The notes under the pieces are model-generated. The model did not search any database and was not told where the DNA came from. It saw nothing but the letters and a program-made list of their open reading frames with translations. A DNA stretch of 64,000 nt from Sulfurovaceae bacterium (GTDB lineage Bacteria; Campylobacterota; Campylobacteria; Campylobacterales; Sulfurovaceae). This document shows, one piece after another, positions 58,215 to 63,489 of this stretch. A program made the position numbers and the translations under genes. The stretch lies in contig JAQTLE010000005.1 of assembly GCA_028715055.1 (NCBI GenBank), positions 1 to 64,000 on the forward strand, written 5' to 3'. Every line of letters begins with the position of its first letter. Positions within the stretch are counted from its first letter, which is position 1.

Positions 58215-58547
58215 TTTTTTAAACAAATCCTTATTCGTCAAGATTCTTTTATATCATAACTCAATAATTTAACAATAACTTAACAGAACTCACATATAAT
58301 TTTTTATTAATAATATTAAAAACATTTAGATTTGAAATGATAAATTTAAAAATTTAAGGAAAATAGGTGAAAAAGTTAAGGTTTTTGATAAGCACTAAAA
58401 CTATTCAGTGTCAGTGACAATTCAAATGATAATGGTTGATTTGGTAAGAGCCGGTGATATGCTTGTATTATAAATTTAAACTTAATAAAAATTATTAAAT
58501 ATATAATATAATATTAAAATATTTTGAGACTTTGAAAAGGAGAATTA
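58215..58547. other. AT-rich gap with no gene recognised
   Basis: 333 nt between recR and the lipoprotein gene. A GTG-started 16-codon frame (58366-58416) and a 13-codon ATG frame (58433-58474) exist, but neither has clear homology. A perfect 11-bp palindrome TGTCAGTGACA stands at 58409-58419. The last 100 nt are nearly all A and T and would hold the promoter of the lipoprotein/RTX pair. No riboswitch fold was recognised. Confidence 0.4.
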
Positions 58548-59132
58548 ATGAAAAGGTTTAAAAAGTTATTTGTTGGTTTGGTTTTAGTTTTTGGATTTAA
58601 TGGGTGTGAGGCAAAAACGCAAACTCTTCCCCCGAAAGCACCTCTTGATGTTTCTAGGTTAGGAAATGTATATGAGAGTGTTTACAATAAATACTCTTTC
58701 GGTAGTTTAAATTGTATTGTCGGCAAGAAAATATTAGATGATGGAATTTCTGAAAGAGCTTTTATTAAAGTTGTTGATAAAAGTATAGCTATTAAAAACT
58801 GGAATAAAGAGCTCGATTTGCCGGAATCTTATTTTTTTCAAAATAGAGCGACACATTGTGCTTTTTTTGACGATAATATATATGTTTTAGAGCAGGTTGA
58901 TACACAATCTTCCCAATCATTATCTCAAACATTACTTTATGTGTGCAAGTTTAATAAAAATGGTGAAAATAAAATGTGCAAGATTGTTGAGAATAATTTT
59001 TATACAAGTTGGGTTGAATTGGAAAAGAAAAATTTTAATGTCAGCAATGACAGTATAGAAATTCATGGTAAATTTAAAAATAGAAATAGTGATAATATCG
59101 AGGATTTTGATACTAAAATGAAACTTTTTTAA
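58548..59132 (+). CDS. Putative lipoprotein upstream of the RTX glucosaminidase
   Basis: A 194-residue protein. The N-terminus KRFKKLFVGLVLVFGFNGCEAK is a signal peptide with a weak lipobox (FNGC, Cys20), so it should be membrane-anchored and periplasmic. The remainder is mixed alpha-beta with several Cys (around 57, 104 and 134) and no recognised domain. AAAGGAG precedes the ATG, and the RTX protein gene follows after 34 nt on the same strand with its own AAAGGA. Because that protein is a peptidoglycan hydrolase, an immunity or inhibitory role for this lipoprotein is a reasonable hypothesis, but nothing in its sequence proves it. It could also be an accessory or unrelated protein. Confidence 0.7.
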   Translation: MKRFKKLFVGLVLVFGFNGCEAKTQTLPPKAPLDVSRLGNVYESVYNKYSFGSLNCIVGKKILDDGISERAFIKVVDKSIAIKNWNKELDLPESYFFQNRATHCAFFDDNIYVLEQVDTQSSQSLSQTLLYVCKFNKNGENKMCKIVENNFYTSWVELEKKNFNVSNDSIEIHGKFKNRNSDNIEDFDTKMKLF

Positions 59133-59166
59133 TATTTTTTTAAGCATATAACTAAAGGATTTTAAA

Positions 59167-62100
59167 ATGACATCAGAAGAGTTTATACAAAAATTATATC
59201 CAGCAGCCATCAAAGTTTCTAAAGAGACTGGAATGTCATGGGAACTAATATTGGCTCAAGCAGCTCAAGAAACACAATGGGGAAAAAGTGTATTGCCTGG
59301 TACAAATAATATTTTTAATATCAAAGCTTCAAATGACTGGCATGGTGAAACAAAAGAGTTTCGTGTTTGGGAAATAGAAAATGGTAAAAAAGTATGGGTA
59401 ATTGACGAATTTAGAGTTTATGATAGCATTGAAGAATCATTAATGGATAGAGTAGATTTTCTTAAAAATAATCCTCGTTATACTAAAGCCGGACTATTTG
59501 ATGATGGAACGCTTGGAAATTTAGAAAAAGAGGCTGTTGTGCTACAAAAAGCTGGATATGCAACAGATCCTAAATATGCTGATAATTTAATAGCCGTATC
59601 AAATGGGCCAACAATGAAAAGAGCATTAAGTGATATCTCTTTGAATGAAAATTTTAGTCACTACAATACTGATAGTAATGAAAACAATGGCGTATTTGAC
59701 TTCGGCGACAAAGGAGATGATGTTAAAGAGTTGCAATCCATGCTCAATGATTTAGGGTATCATGTTACGGTTGACGGTATATACGGTAAACAGACAGAAC
59801 AGGCAGTCAAAGACTATCAGTCTCAAAATGGTTTAACGGTTGATGGAATCGTGGGTAAAAATACGATGATGTCACTTGAGATAGACGTTGGCGATACTCT
59901 ATTTAATATGAACAATGATATTTTTTACGGAATAAACGGTAACCTCCTTGGCAATATCAGACAATACGACCCTCAAGACACATTATCTCCTTACACATCT
60001 ATAAGCTCAGTATCAGACTTATTAGAATCATTTCAAACAAGTATGGTTCTCAATTCCATGGAAGCAGCCCAGATTTATAGCTCTGTGTTTAGCGGTTCTT
60101 CTTCAGAGTTTAAAGATTTTTTATTTTACTCATGGGATGACAAATATGAAGACAATGACTTTTGGCTAGAAAAACAAGATGACTATAGCTGGATGGAACT
60201 TCGTGACAATGATGAAACATTTTGGATAAGCGATGAGTTTGGAGCTATCATGACTGTCAATCAAGATATATTTGGTGATTATTATAATAGCTTAACGACC
60301 AATTATAAAGGTACAGATATAAGCAATTCTGATTTTATAGTTTATAGTGACTGGTACAATGATGTTGGATTTTCATTTGATGGTGTAAGTGTGAATGCAA
60401 ACTATGGAAGTAGTGGTGGCAATGCTAGCTTTAGTTTTTCTTTTTCTTTTCCGGTTGCACTTGACCTTGACGGCGATGGAATAGAGCTTACATCTGTCAT
60501 AGACAGCAAATCTTGGTTTGATATAGCTGGCGATGGTACTATGCATCAAACTGGATGGGTAGGAGCTGATGATGGGTTGCTGGCATATGATGAGAATGAT
60601 GATGGCAAGATAACAACGGCTAGAGAAATCGCATTTGCTAATAGAACTGAATCAAATGATACAGACCTTGAAGCGCTAAGAAGTGAGTTTGATTCAAATC
60701 ATGATGGCAAACTGGATGCAAACGATACAGAGTTTGATAAATTTAGGATATGGCAAGACAAGGATAGTGATGGCGAGAGTGACGATGGAGAACTTATAAC
60801 ATTGACAAAAGTAGGCATAGTATCTATCGATTTGGAGGGCACTGAAACATCTTATGCTATAGACGGCAACAAGATCAATGCTTTTACAGCTTATACAAAA
60901 ACAGACGGTACTACTGGAATGGGTGCTGATGTAGCACTTGCTTATGATTATACCGGCTATACAACTACCATGACAAATGAATATATGACAGTTAAACGCA
61001 CAGGAAGTGAAGCGGTGTATGCTATGGCTACAAGTGCTACTCCATTGATGCTTGATCTTTCGATTGCCAAACTTGATGGTGCTATAGGAAATAATGGCAA
61101 TGACACGCTCGATGCCAGTAGCAAAAGCACATCAGTGATTTTAGAAGGAATGGCAGGCGACGATGTACTAAAGGGAGGAGCAGGCGATGACTGGCTTGAC
61201 GGCGGGGAAGGAGTAGATACACTCGAAGGCAGAAAAGGTAACGATACATATATAGTTGATAATTATATAGAGTTAAACAACATCAAAGAACCTTTGATAG
61301 GAAATGATACAGATTTTAATACTGTAATATATAAAGGATCGGATGATCTTAAAATTGATATTGAACATATAAATGTTGAGGCAATATATAGCGGATCTGG
61401 AAATGATACTATCGTTTATGCGTATAATTTTGATACAAATAGACAATATGGAAAAGGATATTTATCAAGAAATCTTGTAATAGATGGAGGTGCCGGCGAT
61501 GATACTATATATGGACATAAATTCAATGATCTGCTTAAAGGCGGGCTTGGTCATGATATATTAAACGGCAGGTCAGGAGATGATATATATTTGTTTTCAA
61601 TAGGCGATGGTGTCGACACAATAGCCGAATTTTCCGAAGATTATGTAATAGTAAAAAAGCATAAATGGTATCAAGGCACAAGCTCGGATAAATACGGTTA
61701 TATTGAAGCAAACGGAGGAGATGACACTATACAGTTTGGTGAGGGTATTACACTTGACAATATTGATATTAAGCTTATCGGCAGTGATCTTTTGCTCGGC
61801 GTAAGAAATGCAGGAGATGTGTCTGATATAGAAACATTGAATGATAGAATATTGATCAAAGATTTTCTTAATAATCTTAGAACAATTGAAAATTTATCAT
61901 TTTCTGACAAAACAACCGCATCACTTACAACCATAAGCGGATTAAATATCGGTACATCATCAAATGATACAATAATCGGTTTAGCAGGAAATGATATTAT
62001 TAATAGCAAAGAAGGAGCAGACAAATTAAGCGGAGGGACAGGGGATGATGTATTTATATTTGATACTGTTTTTTCTATGCAAGCAATGGGTTTGACAACG

Positions 62101-62436
62101 GTAACTTTTGGTACACTAAGCAGATCAATATACGGTATGATTGAAAAATCTAACGGTAATATAGATACTATATCCGATTTTGAAGCAGGCAAAGATATTA
62201 TTTATTTAGATAATACGATATTTAAACAATTGAGTGATGGTCCACTAAGCATTGATAATTTTGTAGCCAATTCTACTGGCAATGCAGATGATGCAAATGA
62301 TTATATAATATATAACACTTCCAATGGAAAACTATCTTACGATATCGATGGCAATGGTAAAGGTATGTCTGTGGTGTTTGCAATCCTGTCAAACAAGCCA
62401 ACAGATCTATCGCATCAGGATTTTTATACGATGTAG
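59167..62436 (+). CDS. RTX-type secreted protein with N-terminal glucosaminidase and peptidoglycan-binding domain
   Basis: A 1089-residue protein with no signal peptide. Residues 4-155 form a glucosaminidase (FlgJ-type) domain: AQAAQETQWGKS places the catalytic Glu at 35 and FNIKASNDWHG follows. Residues about 177-240 are a peptidoglycan-binding domain 1 (FGDKGDDVKELQSMLNDLGY, DGIYGKQTEQAV). A middle region of unknown fold extends to about 430. Next come EF-hand-like calcium loops (DLDGDGIE, DSNHDGKLDANDT) and RTX blocks at about 659-698, 775-810 and 938-965 (GGAGDD, GGLGHD, GGTGDDVF). The end (DYIIYNTSNGKLSYDIDGNGK and a short hydrophobic tail) matches type I secretion substrates. Export by a type I secretion system, followed by cutting peptidoglycan, is inferred; no transporter is in the window. 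It may act on other bacteria or on the cell's own wall. Confidence 0.85.
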   Translation: MTSEEFIQKLYPAAIKVSKETGMSWELILAQAAQETQWGKSVLPGTNNIFNIKASNDWHGETKEFRVWEIENGKKVWVIDEFRVYDSIEESLMDRVDFLKNNPRYTKAGLFDDGTLGNLEKEAVVLQKAGYATDPKYADNLIAVSNGPTMKRALSDISLNENFSHYNTDSNENNGVFDFGDKGDDVKELQSMLNDLGYHVTVDGIYGKQTEQAVKDYQSQNGLTVDGIVGKNTMMSLEIDVGDTLFNMNNDIFYGINGNLLGNIRQYDPQDTLSPYTSISSVSDLLESFQTSMVLNSMEAAQIYSSVFSGSSSEFKDFLFYSWDDKYEDNDFWLEKQDDYSWMELRDNDETFWISDEFGAIMTVNQDIFGDYYNSLTTNYKGTDISNSDFIVYSDWYNDVGFSFDGVSVNANYGSSGGNASFSFSFSFPVALDLDGDGIELTSVIDSKSWFDIAGDGTMHQTGWVGADDGLLAYDENDDGKITTAREIAFANRTESNDTDLEALRSEFDSNHDGKLDANDTEFDKFRIWQDKDSDGESDDGELITLTKVGIVSIDLEGTETSYAIDGNKINAFTAYTKTDGTTGMGADVALAYDYTGYTTTMTNEYMTVKRTGSEAVYAMATSATPLMLDLSIAKLDGAIGNNGNDTLDASSKSTSVILEGMAGDDVLKGGAGDDWLDGGEGVDTLEGRKGNDTYIVDNYIELNNIKEPLIGNDTDFNTVIYKGSDDLKIDIEHINVEAIYSGSGNDTIVYAYNFDTNRQYGKGYLSRNLVIDGGAGDDTIYGHKFNDLLKGGLGHDILNGRSGDDIYLFSIGDGVDTIAEFSEDYVIVKKHKWYQGTSSDKYGYIEANGGDDTIQFGEGITLDNIDIKLIGSDLLLGVRNAGDVSDIETLNDRILIKDFLNNLRTIENLSFSDKTTASLTTISGLNIGTSSNDTIIGLAGNDIINSKEGADKLSGGTGDDVFIFDTVFSMQAMGLTTVTFGTLSRSIYGMIEKSNGNIDTISDFEAGKDIIYLDNTIFKQLSDGPLSIDNFVANSTGNADDANDYIIYNTSNGKLSYDIDGNGKGMSVVFAILSNKPTDLSHQDFYTM

Positions 62437-62445
62437 TTTAAAATA

Positions 62446-63489
62446 TCAAGCTTTGTTTTCGAAACTCTTATCATTAAGATACGCTTGCACAAAATTTCTA
62501 ACCTCTTCATATATAAACGAATCAACATATCCCTCAATTTTGCCACCACTTGCGTTTTTATGTCCGCCACCATTGCCGACATGAGCAGCCATTACTGATA
62601 GATCAAGGGTATCATTACCTCTAAGTGAAAAACTGCCACGATAATTGATATCCATATAAAAGTTATAATCAGGATTTTGCACTAAAAATGCATTACCTAT
62701 AATGGATGTATTTCCTATATTATAACCCAGCATTCCTTTGTAGCCTTGATATGTAATAGTAAACCTCTCTTTTTGGCTAGAGAGCAGAGAAGTTATGTAG
62801 GAGGCTACCAGATTGTCTTTGGTGTTGTTTTCTTGAAAAATAAAAAATTCTTTTTTAAGTCTGTGTATCGCATCGTCGAGTGTTATGTGAGCATTATTAT
62901 TTCCAAGCATTGATTTGGCATGTTCGATCAAAGATAACTTAAAAGCAGTATCTTCCGTTGGGAACATGGTACGATTTATCTCTTTCGCGGATGAAAGCAT
63001 ACTCATCATTACTTTGCCATATTCAAATAGAGCATCTTTACTGTGCCACATGTCAACCGCGTCAATAGTATCTACTATTTGTTTGAGTTCATTTTTTGCA
63101 TCAAAGTCATATTTGTCTTGAAGCCACTCATATGTTAGCCAAGTGCCACAGTGTGCAGTATTGAGATGATACCATAGGTGACTCAGAGCAGTTTTTTCGC
63201 CTGTGATGTGATGATCTAGAAGTTGCAATCCTGCTCTAAGCACTTCTGCTTCTTTTTCTATCCAGTTTGCTTCTTTTTGGGAAAGATTAAGGTCGGTTAT
63301 TAGAATGATAGCATTTGATTGATTACCGTCTTTTTTTATATGGTTTACGATCTCTTTGAGTCTTGCAGCAATTTCAGGACCATAATTGGCATTGTAACAA
63401 GAAATCTCATCAAAAGTTTGCGTTGTGAGATATTGACACCCATATCCGTCTAGATCAATATGGGATAGATGATATAGTTTAGGCTTCAA
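62446..63489 (-). CDS. DHH/DHHA1-family phosphoesterase
   Basis: A 347-residue cytoplasmic protein with N-terminal DHH domain: SHIDLDGYGC with His10, Asp12 and Asp14 as metal ligands, DLN near residue 66, and LDHH at about 91-94. The C-terminal DHHA1 part has GNGGGHKNASGGKIEGY. The layout fits nanoRNase or cyclic-dinucleotide phosphodiesterase enzymes (NrnA/GdpP-like without membrane or PAS parts). The substrate is uncertain. Its start overlaps the Rrf2 regulator gene by 11 bp, so both form an operon. Confidence 0.88.
   Translation of the reverse strand: MKPKLYHLSHIDLDGYGCQYLTTQTFDEISCYNANYGPEIAARLKEIVNHIKKDGNQSNAIILITDLNLSQKEANWIEKEAEVLRAGLQLLDHHITGEKTALSHLWYHLNTAHCGTWLTYEWLQDKYDFDAKNELKQIVDTIDAVDMWHSKDALFEYGKVMMSMLSSAKEINRTMFPTEDTAFKLSLIEHAKSMLGNNNAHITLDDAIHRLKKEFFIFQENNTKDNLVASYITSLLSSQKERFTITYQGYKGMLGYNIGNTSIIGNAFLVQNPDYNFYMDINYRGSFSLRGNDTLDLSVMAAHVGNGGGHKNASGGKIEGYVDSFIYEEVRNFVQAYLNDKSFENKA

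Follow-up and report, generated by a model that had tools for sequence, protein, structure and literature searches.

A gene for a cell-wall hydrolase carried on a repeats-in-toxin (RTX) protein lies directly behind the gene for a small putative lipoprotein in a Sulfurovaceae bacterium (GenBank assembly GCA_028715055.1, contig JAQTLE010000005.1), and raises the question of whether the two encode an antibacterial toxin and the immunity protein of its producer. The window, that is, the whole stretch of DNA analysed, comprised 64,000 nucleotides (positions 1 to 64,000 of the forward strand). A preliminary description of this DNA had proposed such a pair, and both of its open reading frames (ORFs) were present at the positions claimed: a frame of 194 aa (58548-59132, +) and one of 1089 aa (59167-62436, +), on the same strand and separated by a gap of 34 nt. 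The best-supported answer is yes: the large protein would be a type I-secreted antibacterial toxin of a polymorphic system, and the lipoprotein its immunity protein (probability about 0.73). Sequence comparison supports it with the protein domains, the presence or absence of the two genes as a unit, the exchange of cargo and partner between shared flanks, an exported partner upstream in most of the relatives compared, a statistical match between cargo and partner types, and one muramidase paired with a lysozyme-inhibitor partner.

A two-gene unit between recR and a DHH gene

Between recR and the DHH gene, which lies at 62446-63489, the stretch 58215..62445 (no strand assigned) held only the lipoprotein and RTX genes. 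In eight other genomes of the genus recR could be located. The DHH gene followed it directly in five of them and was not within the flank compared in the remaining three. The simplest reading of this junction is a two-gene insertion, which is probable, with loss elsewhere as the alternative. The RTX protein was present in a single copy in the genome, and nothing matching its glucosaminidase part was found in the genomes of the genus searched at E<=1e-10. The lipoprotein gene was AT-rich (GC 28.7% vs. 35.1% for the window).

Domains of the RTX protein

The RTX protein (1089 aa; 59167..62436, +) was composed of an N-terminal cargo, a linker, a self-processing module (SPM), RTX repeats and a C-terminal tail. 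The cargo, which would be the toxic part, was a glucosaminidase domain (aa 12-145; 59200..59601, +; PF01832, 6e-26, 92 bits against a curated cut-off of 30.2) matching the FlgJ structures 2zyc and 3vwo (E 4e-29), so that the FlgJ-type glucosaminidase of the preliminary description was borne out. Its closest family was that of the housekeeping flagellar enzyme FlgJ (TIGR02541, 1.5e-35, 123.5 bits, below the cut-off of 193). Glu35 (59269..59271, +), named earlier as the putative catalytic acid, aligned with a Glu of 2zyc that is replaced by Ala in 3k3t; this fits a catalytic Glu if 3k3t is the catalytic mutant that its sequence difference implies. A peptidoglycan-binding domain followed, again as described (aa 183-236; 59713..59874, +; PF01471, PG_binding_1, 9.8e-21, over its cut-off).

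The middle region, previously described as of unknown fold, proved to be two things: a linker of about 200 aa (about aa 223-428; 59833..60450, +), to which no known fold was assigned (a model of linker and SPM from three sequences had a mean pLDDT, the predicted local-distance confidence score, of 32), and then an SPM (aa 429-594; 60451..60948, +) matching the SPM of FrpC (6sjw) by phmmer at 2.4e-25, or 1.6e-26 with the module alone. This match changes the picture of the locus, because the gene for FrpC likewise stands behind one for a lipoprotein, frpD. The first calcium-binding motif of the SPM, DLDGDG, was kept. At the Asp-Pro position at which FrpC is cleaved (Asp414-Pro415), the window protein had Phe428-Pro429 (60448..60453, +), and since Phe stands in place of Asp, calcium-driven self-cleavage has probably been lost or is absent from the SPM of the window. 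The junction residue varied across 62 relatives with an early SPM: Asp in 29, Ser in 22 and others in 11.

Three blocks of RTX repeats (PF00353, 4.2e-21, three stretches over the cut-off) agreed with the number given earlier: block 1 at aa 661-694 (61147..61248, +; the best PF00353 stretch, with GGxGxD motifs at aa 670 and 679), block 2 around aa 774-799 (61486..61563, +; motifs at aa 774 and 792) and block 3 at aa 956-963 (62032..62055, +; motif at aa 956). The C-terminal region (61951..62433, +), a probable type I secretion tail, shared 45% identity over 158 columns (aa 929-1086) with the C-terminal end of a protein from a same-genus genome discussed below. The protein had no Cys and, by eye, no signal peptide at its start, in keeping with the Sec-independent start described earlier.

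Exchange of cargo and partner between conserved arms

A same-genus genome (G007) held two copies of a related unit, and the comparison pointed to exchange of everything between two conserved arms. The left arm (58470..58594, +), which covers the promoter and ribosome-binding region and the signal-peptide codons, was 78% identical (E 7e-22) to the DNA before a 203-aa gene of G007, and positions 58478-58603 were 73% identical (E 4e-13) to the DNA before a 148-aa gene of the same genome. The right arm began with the linker, at window residue 223, and ran into the RTX part (41% identity over 774 columns; SPM 79% identical); its start was common to both G007 copies. Window positions 58603-59942 had no match in the DNA of G007 at E<=1e-3, and the variable part lying between the arms is therefore made up of the cargo and the mature form of the exported protein. 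In line with this, the first 218 residues of the G007 protein differed from the window and resembled the DUF6973 cargo of another relative (L105), and the exported protein encoded 2 nt upstream of the G007 RTX gene was different from the window lipoprotein. The second, degenerate G007 copy had a third N-terminus (containing HEMTHQW) and the 203-aa lipoprotein, which resembled the window lipoprotein in its signal peptide only. An immunity family shared by these two lipoproteins was considered and rejected, the similarity being carried by the signal peptide.

A constant delivery part with an exchangeable putative toxin domain was thus seen between the window and both G007 copies, and again in tandem units of relatives (see below), together with an adjacent gene which, by position and co-variation, is a candidate immunity gene varying with the toxin. 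A decayed, older SPM-stub cassette at 58428-58470 was also considered: MAFFT placed this stretch in register with the ends of G007 stubs, but local alignments were not significant (shuffled sequences scored as high in 58, 13 and 12 of 300, and two of the three alignments skipped the stretch), so it was left as a hint.

In a further relative (L035, genome G008), judged by eye, a second periplasmic protein similar to the partner, and an orphan membrane protein resembling the partner of another genome (L032, G004), lay beside the relative's own partner; these additional upstream genes look like stored immunity genes.

The upstream lipoprotein

The proposed immunity protein (194 aa; 58548..59132, +) has Cys20 in a lipobox, FNGC, and four further Cys. 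F-N-G-C deviates from the textbook form, but F-A-G-C or F-S-G-C stood behind a very similar signal peptide (62-65% identical) in lipoproteins of three genomes of the family (L146, L147 and L148), which we take to be NosL; the signal peptide of the window protein is perhaps a borrowed export signal. Of the upstream lipoprotein claimed earlier, the position 34 nt before the RTX gene stood as stated, and the identity as a lipoprotein is probable on the evidence of these motifs.

No Pfam or NCBIfam family scored over its cut-off for this protein, and phmmer against PDB sequences, a set that should hold FrpD, returned nothing at E<=5. A single-sequence AlphaFold2 model was all-beta with a mean pLDDT of 50. 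With this model, Foldseek found nothing at E<=0.001, and the best VIA-align match (Z 8.2, one chain of a nuclear-pore entry; proteins that we read as propeller-like ranked below it) was too weak for any inference; FrpD was absent among the 50 matches listed by each of the two programs. Among 174 other genomes of the family three matched the lipoprotein, by the signal peptide only, and among 397 other genomes of the order there were two weak partial matches, one with five internal stops. The preliminary description had made the immunity idea depend on a lipoprotein linked to the RTX protein in orthologues: the same lipoprotein was found beside none of them, and it was the arrangement, not the sequence, that was conserved. 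A conserved arrangement with sequences that are not conserved is usual for immunity genes.

Upstream partners and cargos in relatives

Relatives were collected by an SPM scan of named genomes (the best 80 of 275 confirmed loci, mostly Proteobacteria by their titles), to which further relatives were added. Fifty-six proteins with 100-620 residues before the SPM were counted, leaving out those whose start lay at a contig edge and six short SPM-like proteins lacking RTX repeats; ORFs were called mechanically, export classes followed simple hydropathy and lipobox rules, and the sequences are related by descent. A gene for an exported or membrane protein was found on the same strand within 100 nt upstream in 39 of the 56, compared with 77 of 290 control ORFs, which were long ORFs of the same loci and may include spurious ones (Fisher p 1.8e-9). 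The same rule was satisfied by only 3 of 20 proteins with a later SPM (p 4e-5 vs. the early-SPM proteins). With the six short proteins included the count became 39 of 62, and in a second set of loci it was 12 of 13.

The type of partner followed the type of cargo. Cargos with a hydrophobic stretch were accompanied by partners with multiple transmembrane (TM) segments, and other cargos by lipoproteins or signal-peptide proteins (11:4 vs. 4:20, p 0.0007; partners of the cytoplasmic class left out of these tables); pooled with the second set and de-duplicated, the figures were 16:5 vs. 5:22 (p 1e-4, and at most 0.0013 over five thresholds). Among 2016 pairs of loci, similar upstream proteins occurred in 11, without exception together with similar cargos; one of these pairs was an ORF artefact, one was similar by its signal peptide only and several came from one array, so that the p value obtained overstates this co-similarity. 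The 64 proteins of the pairwise comparison included two pieces inside RTX genes (L211:13245 and L219:552), which were kept out of the second-set count.

Domains recognised as cargo in the 56 members included GH108, M23, phage-lysozyme/SLT, glucosaminidase (in the window protein), lipase and DUF6973, with one or two proteins apiece (tallies from the best 25 of 30 families and, in another tally, the best 25 of 40), and many cargos had no family match. Of 49 upstream proteins, the window's and 48 others, four matched Pfam at E<=0.01, one family each, LprI among them. Many partners looked like multi-TM membrane proteins. A relation to FrpD was considered for the lipoprotein of the Snodgrassella locus (L107), which matched nothing among PDB sequences at E<=10.

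The six short proteins left out of the count (L041, L043, L044, L046, L047 and L048; about 270-580 aa) had an SPM-like domain without RTX motifs, and the Asp-Pro junction was retained in all six. Such a short frame occurred in many of 78 genomes with a match, and in the two proteins tested Pfam gave at most weak EF-hand matches. A pretoxin-HINT/Hint domain stood before the SPM in two of the 56 members (L066 and L069, assigned by eye), which suggests a second self-cleavage device in some of them.

A muramidase with an LprI partner, and tandem arrays

The clearest single case was a Nitrospirae locus (L104) in which a GH108 muramidase cargo (1.3e-27) was preceded, 12 nt upstream, by a signal-peptide protein of the LprI family (PF07007, 1.5e-20). 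LprI is a lysozyme-inhibitor family, and LprI-family proteins have been proposed as immunity proteins to wall hydrolases of the type VI secretion system (T6SS) (PMC8867033, PMC12135965).

In this locus and one other (L209), several units of partner, cargo and SPM stood in a row: the complete units upstream had no RTX motif, and the last gene was long and RTX-rich. One short unit preceded a gene running off the contig in L098, one preceded the full gene in L057, two short units were present in L088, and L106 and L063 had two RTX-bearing genes each. Orphan cassettes, or stubs, were seen in L030, L104 and L209. Units within a locus were compared in 21 pairs from nine loci by amino-acid identities and by nucleotide identities of the SPM only, since the nucleotide values of the N-terminal parts were not usable (end-gap scoring over few columns). 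In six pairs (from L209, L106, L098 and L057) the SPMs were 91-99% identical in protein, and the cargos 24-29% in four (over only 17 columns in L106), 42% in one pair of L209 and 44% in L098. Lower SPM values accompanied dissimilar cargos in L104 (SPMs 56-86%, cargos 19-29%) and in L088, L063 and L030 (SPMs 66-86%, two of them over short stretches; cargos 24-30%), and in L207 the cargos of three units were themselves alike (76-85%). The tightest of these arrays are as expected for an SPM that serves as the seam of cargo exchange.

The toxin/immunity reading and its rivals

If the pair is a toxin with its antidote, the two genes would be transcribed together, and the large protein would pass a type I exporter in the unfolded state and fold on external calcium. 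Its N-terminal glucosaminidase and wall-binding domain would then enter rival cells and cut their peptidoglycan, and the small lipoprotein, encoded first and placed in the envelope of the producer, would block the enzyme when the toxin of a sibling arrives. Linker, SPM and RTX part would act as the carrier, with the cargo and its matching immunity gene swapped by recombination between the left arm and the right arm (linker/SPM). The secretion tail has to be C-terminal, and for that reason the toxin would be N-terminal and the immunity gene upstream. With Phe at the junction of the SPM, the cargo would probably remain attached to the carrier.

No HlyB/HlyD/TolC set, of the kind that the preliminary description had asked for, was found beside the pair, but the genome does encode a type I exporter, on another contig (G000:C3, about 12-17.7 kb), comprising an HlyD-type protein (298.9 bits, cut-off 208.65), an LssB-like ABC protein and, by eye, a TolC-like ORF; it is the likely exporter of the window protein. 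In this region (L163, G000:C3:6000-22000) the exporter genes lie near an ORF whose start, by eye, resembles a BapA-type adhesin.

Several points weigh against the toxin/immunity reading. A wall enzyme must pass the outer membrane of the rival, by a route that the data do not explain, and the lipoprotein has no family or confident fold, so that inhibition cannot be argued from structure. The exporter is unlinked to the pair, its ABC protein scored below the cut-off (610 vs. 693 bits), and both models also matched control genomes, the HlyD model 9 of 14 (one over the cut-off) and the LssB model all 14 (none over it). Seventeen of the 56 relatives had no exported upstream gene by the rule, though some of these look like missed starts, and the simple export classes and possibly spurious control ORFs bear on the same count. 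The match of cargo and partner types, taken in the second set alone, went in the same direction with p 0.08 (5:1 vs. 1:5). In 52 of 63 cargo-similar pairs there was no detectable upstream similarity, which could reflect immunity genes that diverge fast, or cargos matched through shared linkers and RTX pieces. Only one of the 49 upstream proteins matched a known inhibitor family. Finally, deletion of the SPM of ApxIVA, a FrpC homologue, is reported to have attenuated Actinobacillus pleuropneumoniae in pigs, which points to an interaction with the host for at least that member and speaks against a purely interbacterial role of the class.

The pig result would suit a different function, in which the lipoprotein would anchor the RTX protein at the surface or retain it there, and the RTX protein would be an adhesin, a host-directed factor or a surface enzyme. 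FrpD, a lipoprotein of the outer membrane whose gene directly precedes frpC, in the same order as in the window pair, has been described as binding the N-terminus of FrpC at about 0.2 nM, and FrpC fragments as becoming linked to host cells. An anchor, however, would be expected to be conserved and to bind the common carrier, whereas the upstream proteins differ from locus to locus, and the few similar ones all accompany similar cargos; many partners are multi-TM-like, one is of the LprI family beside a muramidase, and the cargo of the window is an enzyme of the bacterial wall, so that we regard this function as unlikely. The kinship of the cargo with FlgJ would instead suit a hydrolase for remodelling of the cell's own wall, for flagellar passage or for the biofilm matrix, next to an unrelated lipoprotein gene. 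Such a role is improbable for an accessory gene that is present once, is missing from most of the recR junctions compared and has no counterpart of its glucosaminidase part in the genomes of the genus searched; relatives put other cargos on the same type of carrier, and export on an RTX carrier would remove the enzyme from its own periplasm. A secreted lysin used for nutrition or predation, with no dedicated immunity and the lipoprotein as a passenger, has some precedent in a review that counts hydrolases, bacteriocins and one putative lysozyme among the predicted RTX proteins, but it leaves unexplained why the upstream gene comes and changes with the cargo and why the types of the two match, and is very improbable.

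Relation to known systems

The nearest known counterpart is FrpD/FrpC of Neisseria meningitidis, with its upstream lipoprotein gene and a type I-secreted RTX protein bearing an N-terminal cargo before an SPM. Bayer-Santos et al. (2019; PMC6759196) hypothesised that FrpC is an antibacterial effector of the type I secretion system (T1SS) and FrpD its immunity protein, and the small N-terminal domain of FrpC-like proteins has been considered considerably variable (PMC5472700). The window differs in three respects: its lipoprotein had no match among PDB sequences while FrpD has a structure there (5EDF), its cargo is a glucosaminidase while the N-terminus of FrpC was, in an account of 2010, without significant homology, and Phe-Pro replaces Asp-Pro at the junction of the SPM. 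Lack of similarity to FrpD is shared by Smlt3025, despite its FrpD-like topology (PMC6759196). The Smlt3024/Smlt3025 pair of Stenotrophomonas (X-T4SS) combines an effector similar to RTX N-terminal domains with this FrpD-like immunity protein; unlike the window pair it is delivered by a type IV secretion system (T4SS), and the available part of its account mentions no peptidoglycan hydrolase role.

Contact-dependent inhibition (CDI), Rhs and Maf systems and T6SS classes such as WHIX likewise have a constant delivery part, an exchangeable toxin, an adjacent variable immunity gene and stub cassettes (seen here in relatives). The usual order in CDI, Rhs and Maf proteins places the toxin at the C-terminus. 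In the system proposed here, unlike these, the toxin is N-terminal, the delivery part C-terminal, the immunity gene upstream, the stubs of relatives 5' of the full gene and the exporter a T1SS. We think it rather probable that RTX proteins with a cargo before the SPM form a widespread, type I-secreted polymorphic toxin system in mirror image, ordered as immunity gene, N-terminal toxin, SPM as recombination anchor and RTX/secretion tail, with stub cassettes 5' of the full gene, in which the SPM would both release or attach the cargo and provide a conserved seam, and to which FrpC/FrpD would belong.

Antibacterial proteins that use RTX or type I routes have been described before. The RTX bacteriocins (RzcA and others) were mechanistically uncharacterised as of a 2010 account, and Cdz of Caulobacter is a two-protein bacteriocin of glycine-zipper proteins (PMC5380434); exchange based on an SPM is not described in the parts of these accounts available, and a survey of 2012 mentions type I secretion, in its accessible part, for large RTX toxins alone. 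Among the papers listed in searches of the open literature, with subscription papers and preprints outside the scope, no other was found to propose a FrpC-type effector/immunity pair or SPM cargo exchange.

Decades of study have not settled the function of FrpC and FrpD, and their meningococcal mutants are reported not to be attenuated in animal models. The comparative data turn the suggestion of 2019 into a general, testable rule: an SPM, a cargo before it and an exported gene upstream would mark a candidate toxin and its candidate immunity protein. Should the rule be true, type I secretion would join the routes for exchangeable antibacterial toxins, the chemistry of the SPM, investigated until now for clip-and-link adhesion, would gain a natural role between bacteria, and the upstream genes would be a source of candidate inhibitors of wall enzymes and lipases.

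Further matches in plasmids and in the genome

In a search of plasmids, 207 records matched; among the 40 matches listed, the SPM accounted for 39 and the cargo for one (H32), and none of these 40 covered 80% of the query. Elsewhere in the genome, two more large ORFs (1488 and 976 aa; L049, G000:C1:468000-487000) matched the RTX part, not the SPM, of the window protein.

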